Source: Hahella chejuensis KCTC 2396 (lineage in GTDB: Bacteria > Pseudomonadota > Gammaproteobacteria > Pseudomonadales > Oleiphilaceae). Taken from it: a stretch of 64,000 bases of DNA. Made by a program: the position numbers and the translations under genes. Of this stretch, positions 47,898 to 59,050 are shown one piece after another. Position 1 is the first letter of the stretch, and each line of letters opens with the position of its first letter. Under the pieces are notes generated by a model. It searched no databases. It saw only the letters and a list, made by a program, of their open reading frames with translations, and was not told the origin of the DNA. Location of the stretch: positions 3,192,501 through 3,256,500 of the forward strand of contig NC_007645.1 in the NCBI RefSeq assembly GCF_000012985.1, read 5' to 3'.

Positions 47898-49565
47898 TCA
47901 CTTCTTTCTGCTTTTGAGGTCGACAACCACGTTGACGGCTGATTCGTACACGATGCGATTTCTTCCCGTGCGTTTTGCCTGGTAAAGCGCTTCATCCGCT
48001 TTTTTGAGGATGTCTTTAGGATGAGACGACTCATTGCGGTATTCGGCCACGCCAAAACTGCAGGTGACCTGAAAGGCTTCACCCTCATGTTGAAAATCCA
48101 ATAGCGATATTTCAATGCGGAGCCGGTCGATAAAGGTCTTCACGCCCTCATCCAAATGCTCAGGCAGGATAATGCAAAATTCTTCGCCTCCTATTCGGGC
48201 GATTAAGTCGGAACTTCTAAGCGATTGGCTTAAAAACGAAGACAGCCTGATCAACACCTCATCTCCTGCAGGATGACCTTTGGTGTCGTTAATTATTTTG
48301 AAGTGATCGATATCCAGCAACACCAGCGTCAGTCCCGAGCCGTATCGCTTCGCCCGGTTGAATTCGTAGTTCAAGCGGTTCTGAAAGAAGCGTCTGTTGT
48401 AGAGTCCGGTCAAAGAATCCCGGGCGGCGATTTCACGCAGTTCGAGGTTTTCTTTATCGAGCTCTTTGGTTCTCTCGAATACCTGACTTTCAATATTATT
48501 TCTGAGTTCGTTGATGGATCTGGACATGCTGTTAAAGGTGCCAGTCAGACGTTTAACTTCGAATAAACTGGCTGGAAGCGTGTCTTCATAAGGGCGACCG
48601 TCGGCGGCGTTTTCCACATGTTTGATCAGACCTTCGATCGGCCTCGCAACATACAGACTGACGGCGGCGCCCAGTCCTATTGAAAAGATAACGATCATCG
48701 TCTCAATAAAGAACAAGCGACGCTTTTCCTCCGCGACGATGGCGGCGGCTTCGGATTCGTCCAGCATGGAAACCAGGCCCCAGCCCAGGCTCGGCAGATA
48801 TCGGGTGGAAGCGATTACTGACGTTCCATCCAGGTCTGTCGCTTTGCGCAGGATGACTTCGTTGCCTTGCAGCGCTTCAATGATTGGCGTGTTCTTTGGG
48901 CCGGACGGAATGACTTGATAGGAAACCCGCGCTTGTTTGTGATCTATGGACTCAACCAGCAAGAACTTTTCATTGTCGCGCAAAGCGAACCTCCATTTCT
49001 CGCTGTCGCCTAACCCCTTGCTTTGCTCATGCAGGATGCTGCTCAAGTCGTAATCAACCTTAATGGCGCCAATTAGCGCCTCATTGAATATCAAACGCAT
49101 GATGACGGACACCTGCGTGACGTTTTCCTCTTGATTGAAAGAAAAGAAGATATTGCCGTGGGCTGACGGCGGCGTACGCAGAGGTTGCATCGTACTTGCC
49201 GTACTGGAGACAGGATGACGACTTTTATCGTAAACCGTGATGCTTCTGATATTCTCCCGGCCAGCCTTGGCGTCCTCTATGATGCTTTTTATGGTCCGCG
49301 CTTCGCTCTGATTCTCCCTGTTATTCCAGTTGCTGAGGCTAACGCGCATTTGCGTTCGGCTGGAGATCAGCGCGGTGCTTTCCAGCAGACTTTCTACGGA
49401 GCCAAGCAGGCGGTTCTTGTGGGCGAGTGAAACTTCAGACAGGCGGGACTCGATTTTGGAGTGGTATTGTTCGGTAGTGAAACTGTTCAGGTACTGCAAC
49501 GTGAACATGAGAGGAAGTGACGCAACTAATGTAAACGCGACAATCAGCAAATACTTGAGCTTCAT
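47898..49565 (-). CDS. Membrane diguanylate cyclase with extracytoplasmic sensor
   Basis: A 555-residue protein. A first membrane helix (about 3-23) and a second near residue 278-298 enclose a Cache-type periplasmic sensor. A HAMP segment follows (about 300-350). The C-terminal GGDEF domain, with active-site motif RIGGEEFCIILPE (a GGEEF variant of GGDEF), synthesises cyclic di-GMP. The inhibitory RxxD site is RSSD in SLRSSDLIARIG, so product feedback is likely. The gene stands alone; copy D of the repeat lies 85 bases upstream of it. Confidence 0.92.
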   Translation of the reverse strand: MKLKYLLIVAFTLVASLPLMFTLQYLNSFTTEQYHSKIESRLSEVSLAHKNRLLGSVESLLESTALISSRTQMRVSLSNWNNRENQSEARTIKSIIEDAKAGRENIRSITVYDKSRHPVSSTASTMQPLRTPPSAHGNIFFSFNQEENVTQVSVIMRLIFNEALIGAIKVDYDLSSILHEQSKGLGDSEKWRFALRDNEKFLLVESIDHKQARVSYQVIPSGPKNTPIIEALQGNEVILRKATDLDGTSVIASTRYLPSLGWGLVSMLDESEAAAIVAEEKRRLFFIETMIVIFSIGLGAAVSLYVARPIEGLIKHVENAADGRPYEDTLPASLFEVKRLTGTFNSMSRSINELRNNIESQVFERTKELDKENLELREIAARDSLTGLYNRRFFQNRLNYEFNRAKRYGSGLTLVLLDIDHFKIINDTKGHPAGDEVLIRLSSFLSQSLRSSDLIARIGGEEFCIILPEHLDEGVKTFIDRLRIEISLLDFQHEGEAFQVTCSFGVAEYRNESSHPKDILKKADEALYQAKRTGRNRIVYESAVNVVVDLKSRKK

Positions 49566-50548: not shown

Positions 50549-50839
50549 ATGAACAACGCCTTATTGATTGACGAAGCCTGGAGCAGGATTGGGGTTACTT
50601 ACCGGAAACAAGAAGCGTTAACCTGCATCAACGGAAAGATGCGCCAACTCTCCGAACTGGAAAGCGACAAGGCGCTGTCGGAAGACATACTGCGGCAAAT
50701 CAGAATCTGCAAAAACTGGATGGATAATCTCAAACGTCACCTTGGCGGAGACGACCATATCACTCACCACTGCCTGACCACCGATGAGCTCAAGCTATTG
50801 GAGAAGATGGTGGTGAAGCTGAACGACCACGGGTCATAG
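50549..50839 (+). CDS. Hypothetical helical protein, 96 aa
   Basis: Starts at ATG 50549. It is a short, soluble, entirely helical protein (QEALTCINGKMRQLSELESD, then EDILRQIRICKNWMDNLKRH). No signal peptide, motif or known family. Its last six bases overlap the stop of the StrG-like gene on the opposite strand, so the two converge. Confidence 0.6.
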   Translation: MNNALLIDEAWSRIGVTYRKQEALTCINGKMRQLSELESDKALSEDILRQIRICKNWMDNLKRHLGGDDHITHHCLTTDELKLLEKMVVKLNDHGS

Positions 50840-51475
50840 TTCCATCTTTTCAGCGGGCTGGCGATCAGCCAGAACATCACGCCAGGGAGAGGCTACTCTG
50901 TCAGGCGCTTTGGCTTTGAATCTGAAGTCGCAACTGACCCGGGTGTGGTCAGTCTGATTGGGGAAGGTGCCGTGTTTCAATAACCCTCCGTCCCACAGCA
51001 ACGCTTCGCCATATTTCAGGTTGAGCGGCTGGTAACGGTTGCTGCCGTAGCCGGCTTCGCACCATACCGTCGCGGTTTCGAAGACGTCGGTGAACGGCAA
51101 ATAACAGTTGATCTGGTCCAGACGACCGGTAACGTCCGCATCCCGGTGAAAGTCGCTGACGCAGCCTGTTCCAGCCAGATGCACGCGCATCTTCGGGTGG
51201 GCGGAATAGCTGATTTTGCCTCCGTAGCAGGGCGCCAGCACAGCGGCGATCCAGGCGTGATAAACCTTGTAGAACGGAGAATCGTCAGGCAGACGCTGCA
51301 TGAGTCTGCGCAGCGTCATGTTGTCCTGATAATGCAGTTTTTCCCGGTTATTCTGTCGCCGCCACGCCACATGAAGCTGATCCAGCCGCCGCACTTTGAA
51401 CACATAGTGCGACAGCACTTTCTGAAACGGGTACAGCTCCGTATCGTAAGTCAGAGTCAGGGCGCGGCTGAGCAT
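50834..51475 (-). CDS. StrG-like Fe(II)/2-oxoglutarate oxygenase-type protein
   Basis: A 213-residue protein resembling StrG of streptomycin clusters and similar iron/2-oxoglutarate enzymes. H110-R-D112 and H168 form the 2-His-1-carboxylate iron site, and R179, eleven residues later, is placed to bind 2-oxoglutarate. Further landmarks are NCYLPFTDVF, TVWCEAGYGS and YGEALLWDGGLLKHGT. It is the last gene of the minus-strand operon and starts four bases after the repeat-protein stop, so it is probably translated with it. It could hydroxylate or otherwise oxidise a peptide or small molecule from this cluster. Confidence 0.8.
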   Translation of the reverse strand: MLSRALTLTYDTELYPFQKVLSHYVFKVRRLDQLHVAWRRQNNREKLHYQDNMTLRRLMQRLPDDSPFYKVYHAWIAAVLAPCYGGKISYSAHPKMRVHLAGTGCVSDFHRDADVTGRLDQINCYLPFTDVFETATVWCEAGYGSNRYQPLNLKYGEALLWDGGLLKHGTFPNQTDHTRVSCDFRFKAKAPDRVASPWRDVLADRQPAEKMEL

Positions 51476-51479
51476 GGCG

Positions 51480-53069
51480 TCAGAACTCCAGCGTGCTTTC
51501 GCTGCTGAGTGTTCGCCCGCGGAATTTTGTGGATATTTTCATCGTTCCGCTGACTTTTCCTGATCCGGCGTCAACGCCGCTGACGTCGATACTGTAGGTC
51601 TTGCCGATGGTTTTGCCGTCCGCGGCGTACAGCGTCACGGTGACGGTTGTCGGCTTGCCGTCAGCCAGGTTGGTGATCACTGTTTTCAGCGGTGAACCGT
51701 CGCTGCGGGCGATGGTTTTTTTATAGGCCGTCGTTTGTCCGTCCGCATTCTTCATTGTGCTGGTGTGAGTCGCATACTGCGGCGTAGACGCCTGCGCCGA
51801 CGCAGCGAGAAGCTCGCTGGCTTCGATCGCCGCGTTAACCGCTGTGGGAGAAGTAAAGTTCTTCACTGTCTCGACTGTGCTGGAATCCTGCAAATTGGTG
51901 GTGGTGATTTTCGCATGCCCGCCTATGGGCTTTCTGCGATAGTTAAACACCGTATTCGCGTAGTCGGTCTCGGTCAGAAACAGGGGCGTTTGCGTATCCG
52001 GATCAAGGGTGCGGCTTTGGGTCTTGCTGGGCGCGCCATGGCTGTCGTAGGTTGAGTCCGTCATGGATGTCAGCTTCTCGTTCGCATCATATCCACGCGT
52101 GTGGACGGTGCTGTTGATCGCCCTCAGTTCGTTGTCGAAAGCCGCTCCCTCATAGGAGGAAACCACTTTACTGTGAAGTTTTGCGTCGACATAGTTTTGG
52201 GTGACGGCGTTAGAGGGAACGCCGTTTTGATATGAAACGACGGTTTTACTCTGGATGACGTTATTGCTATCGCTGACGCTGTAATGCGCTTCCCCCCCTG
52301 AAATCTTGTTGCGGGCGTTGAACTGGGTGTTTTTGAACTCGGTCAGCACTTGGGATTTCAGTTGTGCGGTAGCCGGGTCGAAGTTCTTGGTGTGGATTTG
52401 ATCAATGGCTCCGGTTGAGGTCATGAAAACGTGAGACTGCGCGTTTTCCGCCCGTGCCGCGTTTTTGGAGGAAACGGAAAAATAGCCGCCGGTAATACGG
52501 TCGCCAATGAACTTGGTCTGGCTGTAATCGATGTCCGTATAGCCTTCCACGCCGCCCTGTCCCTCGGGGGAATAGTGGCGGAAAGCGCCGGTGGCGATCT
52601 GTTCGTTGTCGTACGTCACCACGCCGTCGCTGCGCAGGCGCTGAGTGTCTCCCCGTCGTGAAGAGAACTTGACCTGGCCGCTGTGGATAGTAGAGGCGGG
52701 CGTCCAGCGTACATTAGTGAAGTCTGCTTCCACCTGTTTGGCTACGCCGGAAGCGAAGCGATTGTGGATGTCCGTTTTGGCGGAGGCCACTTTGCCGTTG
52801 GTGAAGGTGAGGGTGGAGCTGTTGATGGGGCGCCCGTCTGTGTCGGTTGACGTATGACTGAGGGTTCCCCCTTGAACAGCGCCCTCCGGAGAGAGCTTCA
52901 GGTTGGCGTAATCGGTTTTGGAATAGGCGGCGACGGTCTGGCCGTCGGGGCCATAGTGGGTTGTGGAAGCGTTCTTCGGCAGGCTTGCTATTTCACCCGC
53001 CAATTGGCTGACGTTGGCGATATGCTCTGAGGCTTCGAGGTGATCGCTGAGTTCGTGTGTGGCGTTCAA
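51480..53069 (-). CDS. Unknown protein made of six ~63-residue repeats
   Basis: A 529-residue soluble protein with no signal peptide. Anchors of the form (D/E/S)(Y/F)xxxxF followed by a GG or SG turn recur at residues 53, 116, 181, 244, 305 and 369, spaced 63, 65, 63, 61 and 64. Examples are TDYANLKLSPEGAVQGG, IDYSQTKFIGDRITGG and TDYANTVFNYRRKPIGG. Between the anchors lie Thr/Ser-rich beta-strand segments (SHTSTDTDGRPINSSTLTF), much like antiparallel beta-helix or YD/RHS-like repeats without the YD motif. The last 110 residues differ from the repeat (KTYSIDVSGVDAGSGK). Function unknown. It lies 21 bases after the methyltransferase gene. Confidence 0.75.
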   Translation of the reverse strand: MNATHELSDHLEASEHIANVSQLAGEIASLPKNASTTHYGPDGQTVAAYSKTDYANLKLSPEGAVQGGTLSHTSTDTDGRPINSSTLTFTNGKVASAKTDIHNRFASGVAKQVEADFTNVRWTPASTIHSGQVKFSSRRGDTQRLRSDGVVTYDNEQIATGAFRHYSPEGQGGVEGYTDIDYSQTKFIGDRITGGYFSVSSKNAARAENAQSHVFMTSTGAIDQIHTKNFDPATAQLKSQVLTEFKNTQFNARNKISGGEAHYSVSDSNNVIQSKTVVSYQNGVPSNAVTQNYVDAKLHSKVVSSYEGAAFDNELRAINSTVHTRGYDANEKLTSMTDSTYDSHGAPSKTQSRTLDPDTQTPLFLTETDYANTVFNYRRKPIGGHAKITTTNLQDSSTVETVKNFTSPTAVNAAIEASELLAASAQASTPQYATHTSTMKNADGQTTAYKKTIARSDGSPLKTVITNLADGKPTTVTVTLYAADGKTIGKTYSIDVSGVDAGSGKVSGTMKISTKFRGRTLSSESTLEF

Positions 53070-53090
53070 GGCGCATTCCTCCTCAAGGTT

Positions 53091-55301
53091 CTAAAGAAGA
53101 TGGGTTAAATAGCGATTGACGATGAGCGTGGTGAGGTTGAACTTTTCCCACTTGTGCCATAACAACAATCCTCCCTTACTGCTGTTGCGATAGACGATAT
53201 CCGCCACATAGCCCGCGGCCCAATCAGGGAGCGACGGGCCGCAGTATGCGGGCGGCGTCTGGACGATGGATGAGCCGTAGCAGGTGAACGCGCCGTCCTC
53301 TTCGTTGGAACGGGTCACGCCGTACAGCTCAATCGTATTGATAATGGGGTCGCGTAAAAAAGTGGCCTCTCCCTGATGGCACGCTTTATCGCCGCCGCGC
53401 CAGCGCAGTGCGCCGTTGCTGAAAGAGAACTCAGGCACGGAGCGCTGATTGATCGTCAGTCCCGTTTCCGACAATGTGAATTGGTTGATGTCGCGGTGGA
53501 AACGTCCATCGGTTCTGACGGCGTATTCGCCGTAAACCGCGCGCAGGTCATCGCATTCGCTGAAGCCGCACGCCCGCGCGCTGAGCGCCTTGCGTTCAGG
53601 GTTGGCTTCCGCTGCGACGAAAGCGGGCTGTGCGCCGTCGAGGCTGGCGTCGCTCCAGATTTTTCCGATCAGTCGCCGGCCGCCATTGGCGTCTATATCC
53701 AGACGCAGAAAGCCATGGTGGGGAATATGAGCGTTTGCTTTCCAGCGAATCGCTCCAGCCTCGAAGGCGAAGGAGCGAATACGTTGATCGTTGATGTAGA
53801 GAATGCTTTTGTGACGATGTTTGCGAGCGCCGATGATCGTAATGACGAAACGTTGTTCCGGCTCAATATAAATACCCGTCCAGGGGTACAGGTTATTGCG
53901 GAAAATAAAGTCGACGGCGCCACCCAGGCGTCCCCATTCGACCTGATGTCCGCGCGACGCCAGCCAGGCCTCAAAGGCGACCCTGGCTTCGGCTTTCGGC
54001 AGATTTCCCAGGGCTCTCATTAATCCCGTCGCGAAAGATTTTTGCGTCAGGCAGGCGGTCACCATGGCCTCCGTCGCCGGTGAGCGGATATAGGCGCCCT
54101 TGGCGGCGATCTGTATAGCGCCGGAATCCCGCGACGCCAGCATCGCCCGTTCACGGTCCGATAAGCCGCTAAAGCGCGGATCTTCCAGGGCGGCGAGAGG
54201 ATCGCGGCGATACAGGTCCTGTAAGCGGGTGTCGAAACGTAGTTCAATCAGAAAGCGACTGGCGGCGGTTTGGTCTTGCCACTGGTAGGAAGCGGGGATG
54301 CGAAAGCGTTTGAAGGCGTCGAACGCCTTCATCTCCCTCGGCCCGTAGCGGTCGATTTCCCTTAAAGGCGAGCGGGGCGTCAATAGCTTTTGTCCGGGCT
54401 CGATGACGCCGAGATCCACGGCGGTTTGATAATCCGTCGGGACCGCCTGCATGGGGGGAATATAAAACGTGGAGAGTCCGGTGATCTTGATCTGAATTTC
54501 CGGATTGTGCAGCGCGCTGAGCTTGTAGGTCTCAATGACCGGATCAATGGTGGGATAGCGGGAGCCGATGTAATGAGTCACCTCATAGTCGTCGCCGTAA
54601 ACAGACTGCAGCCAATGGATGAAATAGGAGAACTTGTTATTCAGATAGCCTTGTCTGCGATAACCCATTTCCCCGATCAGTCCGACTTGCCAGAGCACCA
54701 CATGAAGGCTGGCGTCCAGATGGCGACGCCGGATCAGGCAGTCAGTGGCTTCGTGAGTCTGCAGGCCGGGGTAACAAGGGTCGATGCCCAGGTCGGAGCA
54801 GAGCGTATCCAACGCGCACACGCCGGCTTTCATGGTGGCTTTGTAGCCTTCCCGTCGCGCCAGCTTAATCGCGCGATGGGTGGACAGTACGAATACGCCG
54901 GGGTGACCATAGAACACCACGACTACTTTGAGTCCCTCGCGCACCCAGTAGAGCTGGGCTTCCGTCATCTGCATGTAGGTGGTGTAGCGGACTTTGTCTT
55001 CCCCGTACAGCACGTACAAGTCCAGGGCGTCGGGTCGTAACTGCTTCAGCCAGACCACGGTGGCGGGGTCCGCCACGCAGTACAGCACTTTGTCCGCTTC
55101 CTCGATGAGGCGAATGTCGCCGACGGAGACGCCAATGGTTTCGATGCCGGTTCCCAGAATGATCAGCTCGCCTTGCTTCGAGCCGGCGGGAATTTCGCCT
55201 TCTTCCACCTCTCTGACTTTGTCTCTCAGCGCCGCGATGCCTTGCGCCAGTTCTTCCCAGTGCTTTTGATGCTCTTCGTATTTAGGGTAAGCGCTCGCCA
55301 T
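53091..55301 (-). CDS. Borosin-type peptide alpha-N-methyltransferase with borosin-binding-like and beta domains
   Basis: A 736-residue protein. Residues about 44-300 are a tetrapyrrole-methylase-fold SAM-dependent domain like OphMA and SonM, which methylate backbone amides of borosin RiPPs. Matching landmarks are ILGTG (48-52), R105-YTT-Y109 (the R and Y of the active site), YGHPGVFV (131-138) and LGIDP...GLQTHEATD (171-187). Residues about 353-400 (RFDTRLQDLYRRDPLAALED, then GLSDRERAMLASRD) resemble the borosin-binding domain found in precursor peptides such as SonA, so enzyme and binding domain are fused. Residues 484-556 and 605-665 form a duplicated beta unit (LYINDQRIRSFAFEAGAIRW and LTINQRSVPEFSFSNGALRW). 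A hydrophobic C-terminus (TTLIVNRYLTHLL) could be a core peptide. The whole layout is not one I know. Confidence 0.82.
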   Translation of the reverse strand: MASAYPKYEEHQKHWEELAQGIAALRDKVREVEEGEIPAGSKQGELIILGTGIETIGVSVGDIRLIEEADKVLYCVADPATVVWLKQLRPDALDLYVLYGEDKVRYTTYMQMTEAQLYWVREGLKVVVVFYGHPGVFVLSTHRAIKLARREGYKATMKAGVCALDTLCSDLGIDPCYPGLQTHEATDCLIRRRHLDASLHVVLWQVGLIGEMGYRRQGYLNNKFSYFIHWLQSVYGDDYEVTHYIGSRYPTIDPVIETYKLSALHNPEIQIKITGLSTFYIPPMQAVPTDYQTAVDLGVIEPGQKLLTPRSPLREIDRYGPREMKAFDAFKRFRIPASYQWQDQTAASRFLIELRFDTRLQDLYRRDPLAALEDPRFSGLSDRERAMLASRDSGAIQIAAKGAYIRSPATEAMVTACLTQKSFATGLMRALGNLPKAEARVAFEAWLASRGHQVEWGRLGGAVDFIFRNNLYPWTGIYIEPEQRFVITIIGARKHRHKSILYINDQRIRSFAFEAGAIRWKANAHIPHHGFLRLDIDANGGRRLIGKIWSDASLDGAQPAFVAAEANPERKALSARACGFSECDDLRAVYGEYAVRTDGRFHRDINQFTLSETGLTINQRSVPEFSFSNGALRWRGGDKACHQGEATFLRDPIINTIELYGVTRSNEEDGAFTCYGSSIVQTPPAYCGPSLPDWAAGYVADIVYRNSSKGGLLLWHKWEKFNLTTLIVNRYLTHLL

Positions 55302-55314
55302 GTATCGGTCTCCC

Positions 55315-57162
55315 TTAAAGAATTTTGGCGACGAATTTCAGGGCGACGCTGGCGCCGACTTTCAACGGCAGCGTTTTACCCTGATAGGTGTAGCCGGCGA
55401 GCGTGGTGTACGCCTTGGGCCAGTCGCTTTGCGCGGAGTACTGCGCCATGGCGTTGACCGCCGCGTTCTCGTCGTCCTGACTCCAGCGCCAGGCGCTGAA
55501 GGCCTGATCCTCGGCGTCGTTTTTCAGGGAGAGAATGCCGGAGACGGCCATGTTCTGTTCATCGGCGCTGGCGCCTTGATCCACGTAGTAGGAGAAGGTG
55601 GTCCAGCGTTCCTGAATGGTGTTGGCGGGGTTTTCCATGTAATCCATCAACAGACCCAGCGGCGCGGCTTCGGAAGGTTGTTCGTCGGCGTAGCTGGCCC
55701 CGGCTTTTTTGCCCCACATGCCCAACAGTTTCTGGGCGGCGGTCATGCCTCCCATCACGGCGGCGTTTTTAAGCACGAACTTGAAAATGGCGCCTTTGTT
55801 CGCCCACAGAGACTGGCCGATGTTCTTCACCAACGAGCCCAGGGCGGAGCTGTCGACATTGATATCGGTGTCGATGTCGGTGTCGATATCGGTCACGTTG
55901 TCGACGACATTGTCCACTACGGTGTCCACATCCGTGTCGATGTCCACGTCGATATCCACATCCACGTCCACCACCACCAGGGCGTCGATATCCACGTCAA
56001 TGTCGACGTCAATATCCACGTCTACATCCACATCCGTATCCACGTCGGTATCGACGTCAACGTCTACATCCACGTCCACATCGGTATCCACATCCACGTT
56101 CACCAGATCGCCGTTTTCCGCCGCCGCGCTGGTGAACTTGCTGGATATCCATTGCGCGACGTTGCTGAGGTCGGATTTGACCGCGCTGATCACCGCCTGG
56201 CCCCCGGTTTTCAGCGCGTTGAACAGCGTGGGCAGGTTCTTCGCCAGGGCGATGACCGTCTGGCTGATCATGATGATGTTAATGGCGGTGTAGGCGGTGT
56301 ACGCCAGGTCATAGGCGGACATCCACCAGGCCAGTTGCGGAACCTGATAGGGCTGGACAATGACGTCGTCGCCATTGACTTTGCCGGTAAAGAACAGCTC
56401 GTAAACGCCGGCGTCGCCGCTATGCATGATCATGTCCTGCATCACCGCGCTCAGGTTGACGCCGCTGGTGTCGGTGGCGCCGTTGGAGGTCAGCGTCCCT
56501 TTGCTCAACGTAAGCTCCACCGTGCTTCCGCTGGTGGGCTGGTAGAGGGCGCTGCCGTCGGCGCCCAGGATAATCTGGCCACTGCTGTCTTTCGGCAGCA
56601 CCAGCGGAATAATGGGTTGCGGCGGCTGTGGGTTATAGCAGTAGAGGGTCAGGCCCTCGCTGCCCGCCCAGGCGCGCACGTCGTTTTCCGCCCAATAGGA
56701 AACGGAGGAAAAGGTGTTGTAGTCAAAGCCGACGTTGTTGTCGGAGAACCATTGGTTCAGCTTCTGGTTCTGTTGCGTCAGGTCGCTGTTGTTCAGAATG
56801 ATGTCGTTGACCGCCAGCGCATTGGGGCTGTATGGACTGCCTTTGTAGGCTTTGTAGAACGCAAAGGCTTTCTGCGCGCTGGTGAGGTCGTCCGATGTGA
56901 TGGTGACATTGGTGTCGCCCAGGATATTGGTGACCTGATTCAGCAGCGGCATGCCATCGGACTGGCGCGCAAACGATAAATTCTCCAGCGGGTTGGAAGG
57001 GGTGTAGGTTTTTTTGGAGTTGGCGGCGACGGAGTCCACTTTGGTGTAGACCGGATACATCGTGCTGGGATTATCCGCCGAGGCGCCGGAGGGCACGGTA
57101 AACGTATAGATATCAAGAGCTTCGCTATATTGATTGTCGATGTTAACCACATTCGCGGCCAT
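55315..57162 (-). CDS. Large membrane-associated protein with an alternating Asp tract
   Basis: The start is ATG 57162, with AAGGAG six bases upstream, giving 615 residues. The N-terminal 270 residues form a beta-rich domain homologous to that of the upstream gene. Residues about 283-315 (LAYTAYTAINIIMISQTVIA) are hydrophobic and probably span or bind a membrane. Residues about 355-437 are a striking run with Asp at nearly every second position, separated by Val, Ile or Thr. The C-terminal part has a further hydrophobic stretch (GAIFKFVLKNAAVMGGM) and an acidic, Trp-containing end. No signal peptide and no known family. It precedes the methyltransferase by 13 bases. Confidence 0.75.
   Translation of the reverse strand: MAANVVNIDNQYSEALDIYTFTVPSGASADNPSTMYPVYTKVDSVAANSKKTYTPSNPLENLSFARQSDGMPLLNQVTNILGDTNVTITSDDLTSAQKAFAFYKAYKGSPYSPNALAVNDIILNNSDLTQQNQKLNQWFSDNNVGFDYNTFSSVSYWAENDVRAWAGSEGLTLYCYNPQPPQPIIPLVLPKDSSGQIILGADGSALYQPTSGSTVELTLSKGTLTSNGATDTSGVNLSAVMQDMIMHSGDAGVYELFFTGKVNGDDVIVQPYQVPQLAWWMSAYDLAYTAYTAINIIMISQTVIALAKNLPTLFNALKTGGQAVISAVKSDLSNVAQWISSKFTSAAAENGDLVNVDVDTDVDVDVDVDVDTDVDTDVDVDVDIDVDIDVDIDALVVVDVDVDIDVDIDTDVDTVVDNVVDNVTDIDTDIDTDINVDSSALGSLVKNIGQSLWANKGAIFKFVLKNAAVMGGMTAAQKLLGMWGKKAGASYADEQPSEAAPLGLLMDYMENPANTIQERWTTFSYYVDQGASADEQNMAVSGILSLKNDAEDQAFSAWRWSQDDENAAVNAMAQYSAQSDWPKAYTTLAGYTYQGKTLPLKVGASVALKFVAKIL
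55852..56100 (-). repeat. Degenerate hexamer tract encoding alternating Val/Ile/Thr-Asp
   Basis: The DNA is a run of GTxGAT/GTGGAC-type hexamers that encode the alternating tract of the membrane-associated protein, about 83 residues. The codons vary (GTC, GTG, GTA; GAC, GAT; ATT, ATA), so the repeat has diverged at the DNA level while the amino-acid pattern is kept, a sign of selection on the protein rather than a recent slippage event. Confidence 0.85.
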
Positions 57163-57259
57163 GCGGATCTCCTTCAAGCGTGGGTAGGACGTGTCAAAGG
57201 CGACGACGGGACCGCGCGTCGTCGTGCAGCCCGTCGCCAATGGTCAGTGGGTTAGACGT
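57163..57259. other. 97-base gap between the two paralogous genes
   Basis: A GC-rich spacer with a possible hairpin (GACGACG...CGTCGTC, 57199-57222), between the 3' end of the upstream gene and the AAGGAG of the next. It could reduce read-through or separate expression of the two paralogs within the operon. No T-run. Confidence 0.4.
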
Positions 57260-59050
57260 TTAGAAGTCTTCGAACGGCTTGATTTCGTCTTCCGCTTTGG
57301 GATCGTCGTTGGCGGCGTCCTCTTCCGCATTTTTCTCGGAATTCTCGATATCTTCGCTGACTTTTTCGCTGGCGGCCTGATTGCTTTCGATCTGCGCCTT
57401 CTGCTCGCTGGAAATGGTCTGATCGAGGGACTCTGTCAGTGCGGAGGTATTGGCCTGAATGTCTTTGAATGCGCTGGTCTGCTCGGTGACGACATCATGG
57501 AGATTCTCTTCTGTGGCGCTGTTCAGCGCGTCATTGGAGTTCTTGATGCTGGTGGCGCTGGATTCCAGTTGCTCCAGCTGTTGGCCATTCATTTCGCTTT
57601 CATATTGCGCCTGAATTTCCAGCGTGCTGGCTTCGGCTTTCAGGCCTTCTTCCAGATTGATGGCGTTCAGGTTGTCATCAATGGAGCCCCGTTCAGAATT
57701 GATTTCATCCAGCGCGCTTTCGGTATCCTCTGGGGCGTTCTGCTGGCCATTGGTGAGCTTCTGCACGGCGGTGTCGATCTTCTCGTTGAGGGCTTTCTCT
57801 AAAGCTTCCTGCTGTTGCTTGAACAGATCCTCAGTGGTTGGCTCTTTGGCTTTGCCGCGGTTTTTGACCCACTTGAAGATGCCGTACAGGGTCGATCCTG
57901 CGAAATGCAACATCATCACCGCGCCGCCAATGGTCATGATGGAGTTGAACACCTGCGCGGAGTTTTTCGGGTGGAACAGGGTATTCCAGAATTCCGAACT
58001 CTGGTCGGTGCTCAGTTGCGGAGAGTCGAACCCAATACAGGTTTCCCCGGCGATGCTGCCGGTTATAACCGGAATGATTTGGGTGTCGGACGGGTTTTGG
58101 GTGAAGACGCGTTTCAATTGAAATGTGCCTTTCACCGCTACGTCTGGGATATCCGCGTTTACGTTGTCCACAAATAAGGCGTTAGTGTAAGTCAGCGTTT
58201 TCGCCTGTGATGAGTCAACATCCACGGTGCTGGTGTCAGTGGGATTTTTCGCTGGGGTAAAGGTGCAGGTGTAGCCCGCATTGGGTTTGCTGAGATCCAG
58301 CGCGGACGGTTTGGTTAAAGAGAGCGTGCCCACAAAGGACGTGGTCTTGCTGTCGCTGCTGTACAGGTAATAGGTCGTACTGTCATATTGCGCCCACACG
58401 AAAGGGAACTTGCTGTAGTAGGACTCCACCGCGACCAGGCCAGCCAGGGTGACGTTCTGGAAGCCCTTGGTGGACGCAAAGAAAGCATTGACGCTATTGG
58501 TGATGGAGTTCGCCACATTGTCGGAAGAATTCGCGCTGCCGTCCGCCTGACCCTGCGCCGTGGTTTGCGCGCCGTTCATGGCGGCTTCATAGTTCTTGGT
58601 TAACTGGGAGGTAGGGTAGGCGGCGATGGTTTGATAGAAAGTGGCCGCATTTGCGATGGACTGTTGTTCGGCGGTGGTGACAGTCTGCGCGGGAAAGGTC
58701 ACGGGCGTGCCGAAAATATTTTGCATGACGCCGATATTGTCTACCGGGAAGTACCAGCTGGAGGTGCTGGCCAGCAGGTTATAAACCAGCGAATACTGCT
58801 GCTGTTTGGTATTGGGATCAGTGTAATACTGATCCAGATAAACCGTTCCGGAACCGTTCTGACTGATAACGGTTCCGCCTTCGAGCAGAGAGAGAATTTC
58901 CAGATCCTGATCGTAAACACTGGCGTTCTGTGTATCGCCAGGAGCCTGTGCGGTAGTAGGAGACAGAATGACGATATCAGAGGTGCAGTTATTGGTGATC
59001 ACACACTCTTTGCTTTGGTCCGGTTTAGTGGTGGAAGCGGCTGTTGACAT
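57260..59050 (-). CDS. Large protein with beta domain, membrane helix and acidic coiled-coil tail
   Basis: A 596-residue protein, first gene of the operon. Residues 1-330 resemble the N-terminal domain of the next gene (shared pattern NIFGTPVTF / NILGDTNVTI followed by a helix). A membrane helix lies at about 375-400 (SIMTIGGAVMMLHFAGSTLY). The tail (about 400-596) is Gln/Glu/Asn/Ser rich with heptad pattern (KQQQEALEKALNEKIDTAVQ), an acidic coiled coil. No signal peptide; the N-terminal domain would be on one side of the membrane and the coil on the other. No known family. Start at ATG 59050 follows GGACAAG. Confidence 0.75.
   Translation of the reverse strand: MSTAASTTKPDQSKECVITNNCTSDIVILSPTTAQAPGDTQNASVYDQDLEILSLLEGGTVISQNGSGTVYLDQYYTDPNTKQQQYSLVYNLLASTSSWYFPVDNIGVMQNIFGTPVTFPAQTVTTAEQQSIANAATFYQTIAAYPTSQLTKNYEAAMNGAQTTAQGQADGSANSSDNVANSITNSVNAFFASTKGFQNVTLAGLVAVESYYSKFPFVWAQYDSTTYYLYSSDSKTTSFVGTLSLTKPSALDLSKPNAGYTCTFTPAKNPTDTSTVDVDSSQAKTLTYTNALFVDNVNADIPDVAVKGTFQLKRVFTQNPSDTQIIPVITGSIAGETCIGFDSPQLSTDQSSEFWNTLFHPKNSAQVFNSIMTIGGAVMMLHFAGSTLYGIFKWVKNRGKAKEPTTEDLFKQQQEALEKALNEKIDTAVQKLTNGQQNAPEDTESALDEINSERGSIDDNLNAINLEEGLKAEASTLEIQAQYESEMNGQQLEQLESSATSIKNSNDALNSATEENLHDVVTEQTSAFKDIQANTSALTESLDQTISSEQKAQIESNQAASEKVSEDIENSEKNAEEDAANDDPKAEDEIKPFEDF

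Follow-up and report, generated by a model that had tools for sequence, protein, structure and literature searches.

Which substrate does a borosin-type peptide methyltransferase act on when its operon encodes no small precursor? The question is raised by five genes on the minus strand of the window, that is, the whole 64,000-nucleotide stretch of Hahella chejuensis KCTC 2396 DNA analysed here (contig NC_007645.1, positions 3,192,501 to 3,256,500). The host genome is a single contig of 7,215,267 bases. The genes run from 59050 to 50834 of the window with intergenic gaps of 97, 13, 21 and 4 bases and thus form the same-strand operon reported in a preliminary description made from the sequence. 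That description correctly stated that the operon lacks a small precursor, and it named the large partner proteins or a core at the C-terminus of the enzyme as possible substrates. The Asp-rich tract in gene 2 was overlooked in it, and the candidate substrate was thereby missed. We propose, with a probability of roughly 0.8, that gene 2 encodes the precursor whose tract is methylated by the gene 3 product, which would make the operon a split borosin system whose precursor is unusually large. The type of enzyme was known already; the proposed substrate tract in the neighbouring large protein is the present addition. The features concerned are the following (window positions).

57260..59050, minus strand: gene 1 (P0003), 596 residues; partner protein with a relative in 20 of 26 tract-bearing loci
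55315..57162, minus strand: gene 2 (P0002), 615 residues from the ATG at 57162; proposed large borosin precursor
55852..56100, minus strand: proposed core in gene 2; 83 residues, 35 Asp, hydrophobic belt D-ALVVV-D in register
55318..55851, minus strand: part of gene 2 after the core; 178 residues, the last ~115 a predicted helical domain
53091..55301, minus strand: gene 3 (P0001), 736 residues; borosin-type peptide alpha-N-methyltransferase, judged by sequence
54093..55184, minus strand: methyltransferase and clasp region of gene 3; residues 40-403, alignable to OphMA/dbOphMA
53094..54089, minus strand: C-terminal part of gene 3; residues 405-736 with helices, strand-rich segments and terminal helices
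51480..53069, minus strand: gene 4 (P0004), 529 residues; optional partner with about six repeats, each of 61-64 residues
50834..51475, minus strand: gene 5 (P0005), 213 residues; Fe(II)/2-oxoglutarate oxygenase-like protein

The assignment of gene 3 to the borosin-type peptide alpha-N-methyltransferases follows from homology. P0001 matches dbOphMA, OphMA and SonM with E-values from 2e-69 to 3e-36, and its sequence and fold homology to OphMA and SonM goes beyond that to other tetrapyrrole (TP) methylases. Residues Y96, Y99, R105, Y109, Y131 and Q205 are invariant in all 24 aligned rows (window included). They are the equivalents of OphMA Y63, Y66, R72, Y76 and Y98 plus a Gln conserved in the family, and OphMA chains mutated at these five positions each scored 1.8-4.2 bits below the wild type against P0001. 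The position of KchMA S136 is occupied by C162 in P0001 and by Cys or Ser in relatives (equivalence by eye). TP_methylase is the sole Pfam match of P0001 and might suggest a common tetrapyrrole or rRNA methylase sharing this fold, but this reading is practically excluded. P0001 fits borosins far better than porphyrin methylases, so the latter identity was rejected and the enzyme type named in the preliminary description holds.

The core of OphMA/dbOphMA-type fungal borosins is fused to the enzyme, short and hydrophobic. The window enzyme instead has another 330 residues, with strand-rich segments at about 476-565 and 591-678 and helices before them and at the terminus; a PDB sequence search with residues 408-736 found no relative. 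A fused mode, in which the enzyme would methylate its own C-terminal core with gene 2 as a mere partner, is used by fungal borosins and by KchMA according to the passages of PMC11395268 considered here, and one distant relative (L039) has an enzyme that itself terminates in a tail of alternating Glu/Ala/Val. P0001, however, contains no alternating acidic stretch (alternation score at most 6), a helix that includes the nearly invariant W715 and W718 is predicted for its C-terminal end, and an acidic tract was found in a neighbouring open reading frame (ORF) in 26 of 30 related loci. Since acidic alternation is lacking and the C-terminal helix is conserved, we did not place P0001 among the fused borosins (types I-III), and the enzyme's own C-terminus, as suggested earlier, is very unlikely to be the core.

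Where, then, is the core? Gene 2 is numbered here from an upstream TTG at 57240 (641 residues, P0002), while its best start is the ATG at 57162, after AAGGAGATCCGC. Residues 381-463 (window 55852-56100) read NVDVDTDVDVDVDVDVDTDVDTDVDVDVDIDVDIDVDIDALVVVDVDVDIDVDIDTDVDTVVDNVVDNVTDIDTDIDTDINVD, a tract of the form NVDVDTDVDV...VNVD. All 35 Asp residues of this tract lie on one parity, compared with a maximum of 26 in 10,000 shuffles. Its alternation score of 15 is the highest possible; the runner-up among the 253 ORFs of the window scores 7. Codons of the core differ between three Hahella pairs by 22/1, 24/1 and 31/0 synonymous/nonsynonymous changes. As change is almost entirely synonymous, the protein sequence of the core is held by selection. 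The mean pairwise identity is highest in the core, with 0.667 as compared with 0.372 and 0.426 in the domains before and after it, although the few residue types inflate the core figure.

We compared 28 cores (the window, L007, L008 and 25 relatives; L036 was left out). In 25 of these, a regular expression detected an in-register belt, flanked by Asp on both sides and made up of five residues that are mostly hydrophobic, for instance ALVVV, VFAII or AIAVV; the belt of L024, IFAFI, falls outside the expression. The part after the core comprises 174-188 residues in 19 cases, 321-621 in eight and 12 in one (Pseudoalteromonas). Structure prediction of gene 2 from 21 sequences (mean predicted local distance difference test score, pLDDT, 63) gave a folded N-domain, helices, a core with a pLDDT near 30 and a helical C-domain. 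The core is thus predicted to be disordered. Precursor relatives in L021, L022, L026, L029, L034 and L041 reach 945-1106 residues, with 493-621 after the core as opposed to about 178 in the window.

Scans of genes 1, 2 and 4 against Pfam, NCBIfam and PHROGs, in which gene 4 entered the Pfam search as the single window sequence, returned no convincing match, and neither did PDB sequence searches, which used profiles of genes 1 and 4. Matches of gene 2 to MSCRAMM and baseplate proteins cover the Asp tract, look compositional and were rejected.

We collected 30 related loci from several phyla by scanning genome contigs with an enzyme alignment. In 26 of them, a tract ORF separate from the enzyme lies on the same strand near the enzyme gene. 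Alternation scores of at least 10 were reached by only 30 of the 1756 ORFs in these loci, namely the 26 tract ORFs, three ORFs antisense to a tract and one Gly-Asp repeat. In 23 of the 26 loci, the tract ORF immediately precedes the enzyme gene (gap -59 to 228); in two it lies 20 bases downstream, and in the remaining one upstream with one intervening gene. These loci are not all independent: L036 and L037 are near-identical, L013 is closely related to L014 and L034 to L041, and L029, L031 and L032 share the same core; L012 and L035 also carry the labels G004 and G037. As to the four loci without a separate tract ORF, the enzyme match starts less than 700 bases from the contig end in L027 and L030. 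In L040 the enzyme is spread over two frames, and the protein of 168 residues encoded upstream belongs to the gene 1/2 family but has no tract. The fourth locus, L039, is the one with the acidic tail mentioned above. It belongs to a metagenome-assembled genome (MAG) of Halothermothrix, where two enzyme fusions of about 1,365 residues lie in tandem (L039:7425-16084), the first of which carries the tail and represents a fused-core relative.

Two further loci with annotation, located on a Mycetohabitans and an Azospirillum plasmid, encode, in this order, one or two gene 1 relatives, the tract protein, the enzyme (55% and 53% identity, respectively) and the oxygenase (63% and 55%, annotated StrG). 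The tract precursor is labelled hypothetical in both records. Gene order was among the checks proposed in the preliminary description. The core genes do keep their order in relatives, so that the loss of gene order named there as a refuting outcome did not occur, although gene 4 is present in only 7 of the 26 tract-bearing loci.

The Pseudoalteromonas loci L036 and L037 are more compact. The enzyme gene (44% identity over residues 9-575) precedes a 94-residue ORF containing DVDVDVDIDIDIDVDAIAVVDVDIDIDVD, after which come an oxygenase relative (34%) and a radical S-adenosylmethionine (SAM) protein; the fetched locus contains no relative of gene 1 or gene 4. This arrangement resembles a typical split borosin cluster and links the tract with the enzyme even where the large domains are missing. 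In L037 (L037:10877-13105), which is from Pseudoalteromonas rubra, the 94-residue Asp-Val precursor, the oxygenase and the radical SAM/SPASM-like protein make up a cassette resembling those for ribosomally synthesized and post-translationally modified peptides (RiPPs).

Low-complexity sequence that is rich in Asp is able to bind metal ions. The tract could accordingly be an unmodified metal-binding or charged linker, with the target of the enzyme elsewhere, for example in gene 1 or gene 4, and weak, compositional NCBIfam matches of the tract to Ser-Asp repeat adhesins would be in line with such a role. Against this speak the parity and the conservation of the tract beside the enzyme across phyla, and the persistence of enzyme and tract peptide in Pseudoalteromonas where gene 1 and gene 4 relatives are missing from the fetched locus. 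Moreover, a related enzyme is reported to be active on a core of the alternating acidic kind in the cited passages of PMC11395268. A linker role is therefore improbable.

In the passages of PMC11395268 considered here, the cores of type III borosins are described as alternating acidic and other residues, and the bacterial type III enzyme KchMA carries as many as 11 modifications, with Ala, Val and Leu as the main sites and some on Asp. KchMA and the window enzyme would share a core of the alternating acidic kind, but the KchMA core is fused, whereas here it would reside in a larger separate protein. SonM and SonA (type IV) share with the window pair the separation of enzyme and substrate and the same catalytic domain. 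SonM, which acts iteratively from N to C on its substrate (as stated in the part of PMC8429565 used here), aligns to P0001 residues 44-307 only and lacks the clasp carried by the window enzyme; SonA is small and has its own binding domain (PMC8429565, PMC11285071, in the parts used), as opposed to the large precursor proposed here. The closest fit is offered by types VII and VIII, which the same passages of PMC11395268 place among the matches of the type III enzyme AboMA and call predominantly bacterial. Named enzymes of these types are PruM and PmoM; that PruM may come from Pseudoalteromonas rubra is a guess based on its name. Methyltransferase and precursor are separate in both types, and the core of type VIII is followed by about 160 residues. 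In the window, the putative core likewise lies on a separate protein, with 178 residues behind it. The operon therefore probably encodes a split borosin system in which the precursor is large, in agreement with the published account of type VIII. The type VIII description, as far as it is given in these passages, mentions neither a 2-oxoglutarate oxygenase nor a role for a coreless paralogue. The earlier expectation of a large partner protein as substrate is thus likely to be right for gene 2, whereas the accompanying claim that the substrate or role is new is not required, since the type VIII description fits gene 2.

Several observations weigh against our proposal. Methylation of the gene 2 tract is itself inferred from sequence, and the type VIII assignment depends on one secondary description (PMC11395268). 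In the same source, in the passages cited, a KchMA form engineered to contain a protease site was modified at one residue only and at none of the acidic ones; an alternate-residue pattern over the whole 83-residue tract is for this reason a guess. Parity is not perfect everywhere: it switches at a break in L028 and L035, and eight further cores of the 28 have one to four Asp off parity. Finally, the partners are missing from some tract-bearing loci, the oxygenase from 4 (one at a contig end), gene 1 from 6 and gene 4 from 19 of the 26. Some of the absences are due to contig ends. Thus, gene 1, gene 4 and the oxygenase are not needed in every member.

How might the system work? Gene 3 would provide the peptide alpha-N-methyltransferase with its fused clasp region and gene 2 the precursor, in which the disordered Asp/Val/Ile/Thr tract is held between N- and C-terminal domains. 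The tract may thread through the active site and have its backbone amides methylated many times, mainly at the Val, Ile and Thr residues between the Asp, which are the expected sites because of the residue preferences published for the relative KchMA. Hydroxylation of the same tract is the probable role of the gene 5 oxygenase; that its targets are Asp or Val is a guess. In an extended strand, alternation would set the Asp side chains on one face and the N-methyl groups on one edge, a geometric consideration that would lead to a protease-resistant anionic ribbon able to pair by one edge only. Gene 1 and gene 4 are probably binding or assembly partners.

The HxD...H triad of Fe(II)/2-oxoglutarate oxygenases binds iron and an Arg binds 2-oxoglutarate. 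The corresponding residues of gene 5, H110-x-D112, H168 and R179, are invariant in 18 of 18 aligned rows (window included). Its family matches lie below the curated cut-offs, and the oxygenase profile had no match among PDB sequences at E 0.1. With relatives in 22 of the 26 tract-bearing loci, the oxygenase is a frequent partner. Gene 1, which lacks a core, is distantly paralogous to gene 2 in the N-terminal domain (shared domain with a probability of 85% and E 5.8e-6). Its C-terminal part is charged and has a coiled look by eye; the long list of PDB matches consists of generic helical matches to this last part and was not taken as homology. A 986-residue gene 1 relative in L032 (L032:2346-5306) ends in a run of Gly-Asp repeats. 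The repeats of gene 4 exceeded shuffles in a motif test, but a crude ungapped periodicity did not.

Given methylation, the tract might be cut out and released as a small peptide natural product, with the large domains serving as leader and follower. This is compatible with the proposed enzyme-substrate relation, and we regard the chances as evenly balanced. The 94-residue Pseudoalteromonas precursor with its nearby radical SAM peptide-maturase-like gene resembles ordinary RiPP clusters, and peptidases may be encoded elsewhere. On the other hand, no RiPP-type peptidase was recognised among 15 scanned neighbours, a minority of all neighbours; the hydrolase in L015 belongs to the beta-lactamase family. 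Of the 31 loci that were clustered, three or four share each of five further neighbour families; these are response regulators, a histidine kinase, a chitinase-like protein, alanine dehydrogenase and a family that has no Pfam match. The part after the core is also conserved, as its identity of 0.426 indicates, which recognition by the enzyme could explain as well. Because no peptidase was recognised among the scanned neighbours, the tract may stay inside the large protein. It is a tentative and rather unlikely suggestion that it remains between two folded domains, where alternate N-methylation and hydroxylation would make it a charged strand, blocked on one edge, that serves in binding or assembly along with the coreless paralogues; N-methylation would then be a structural modification and not a step towards a small natural product.

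The distribution of the cassette is patchy. Within the genus Hahella, it is present in four of seven genomes and absent from three (judged by enzyme, precursor C-domain and oxygenase), and Hahella sp. HN01 has an 86% match to the enzyme. Among 369 genomes of the class, P0001 has a match in 12 including the window's own, which is the only one with a full-length match and also the only one with the precursor C-domain. Two of the 12 (L051 and L052) match P0001 weakly (E about 1e-4) and only within the strand-rich residues 515-681, so this C-terminal part may exist in other proteins. Overall, several phyla and some plasmids carry the cassette. The enzyme tree joins the window to Aquimarina (Bacteroidota) and to two loci from a MAG with the label Williamsia (support 99/97); the label may be a binning error. 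This grouping suggests horizontal transfer. Viral contigs contained one distant enzyme relative (40% over residues 40-303).

Our literature search found no paper naming both borosin and Hahella, and in the portion of PMC9030710, on Hahella genome mining, that was available, RiPPs are named once and borosins never. With the tract as candidate, an orphan enzyme becomes an enzyme-substrate pair with a named substrate region, and the pairing is therefore testable in a single experiment. The tract would be a long, predictable and repetitively N-methylated sequence, useful for studying how the enzyme moves along its substrate. Should it not be released, backbone N-methylation would be a way to shape large proteins. 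Since the cassette is widespread and the precursor is labelled hypothetical in the two plasmid records, the signature of enzyme plus alternating Asp tract, often with an oxygenase, would help annotation.

Some neighbouring genes are worth recording. Downstream of the window operon, a same-strand protein (window 47898-49565) has a GGDEF-like domain by eye. Near the cassette in Methylococcaceae MAGs, we observed a D-mannose-binding lectin-like protein (L034:213-1685), a chitinase-like protein (L022:10519-11145) and a tandem pair of proteins of about 450 residues without Pfam match (L034:9253-12083), which is also found as a pair in L041 and as a single copy in L022.

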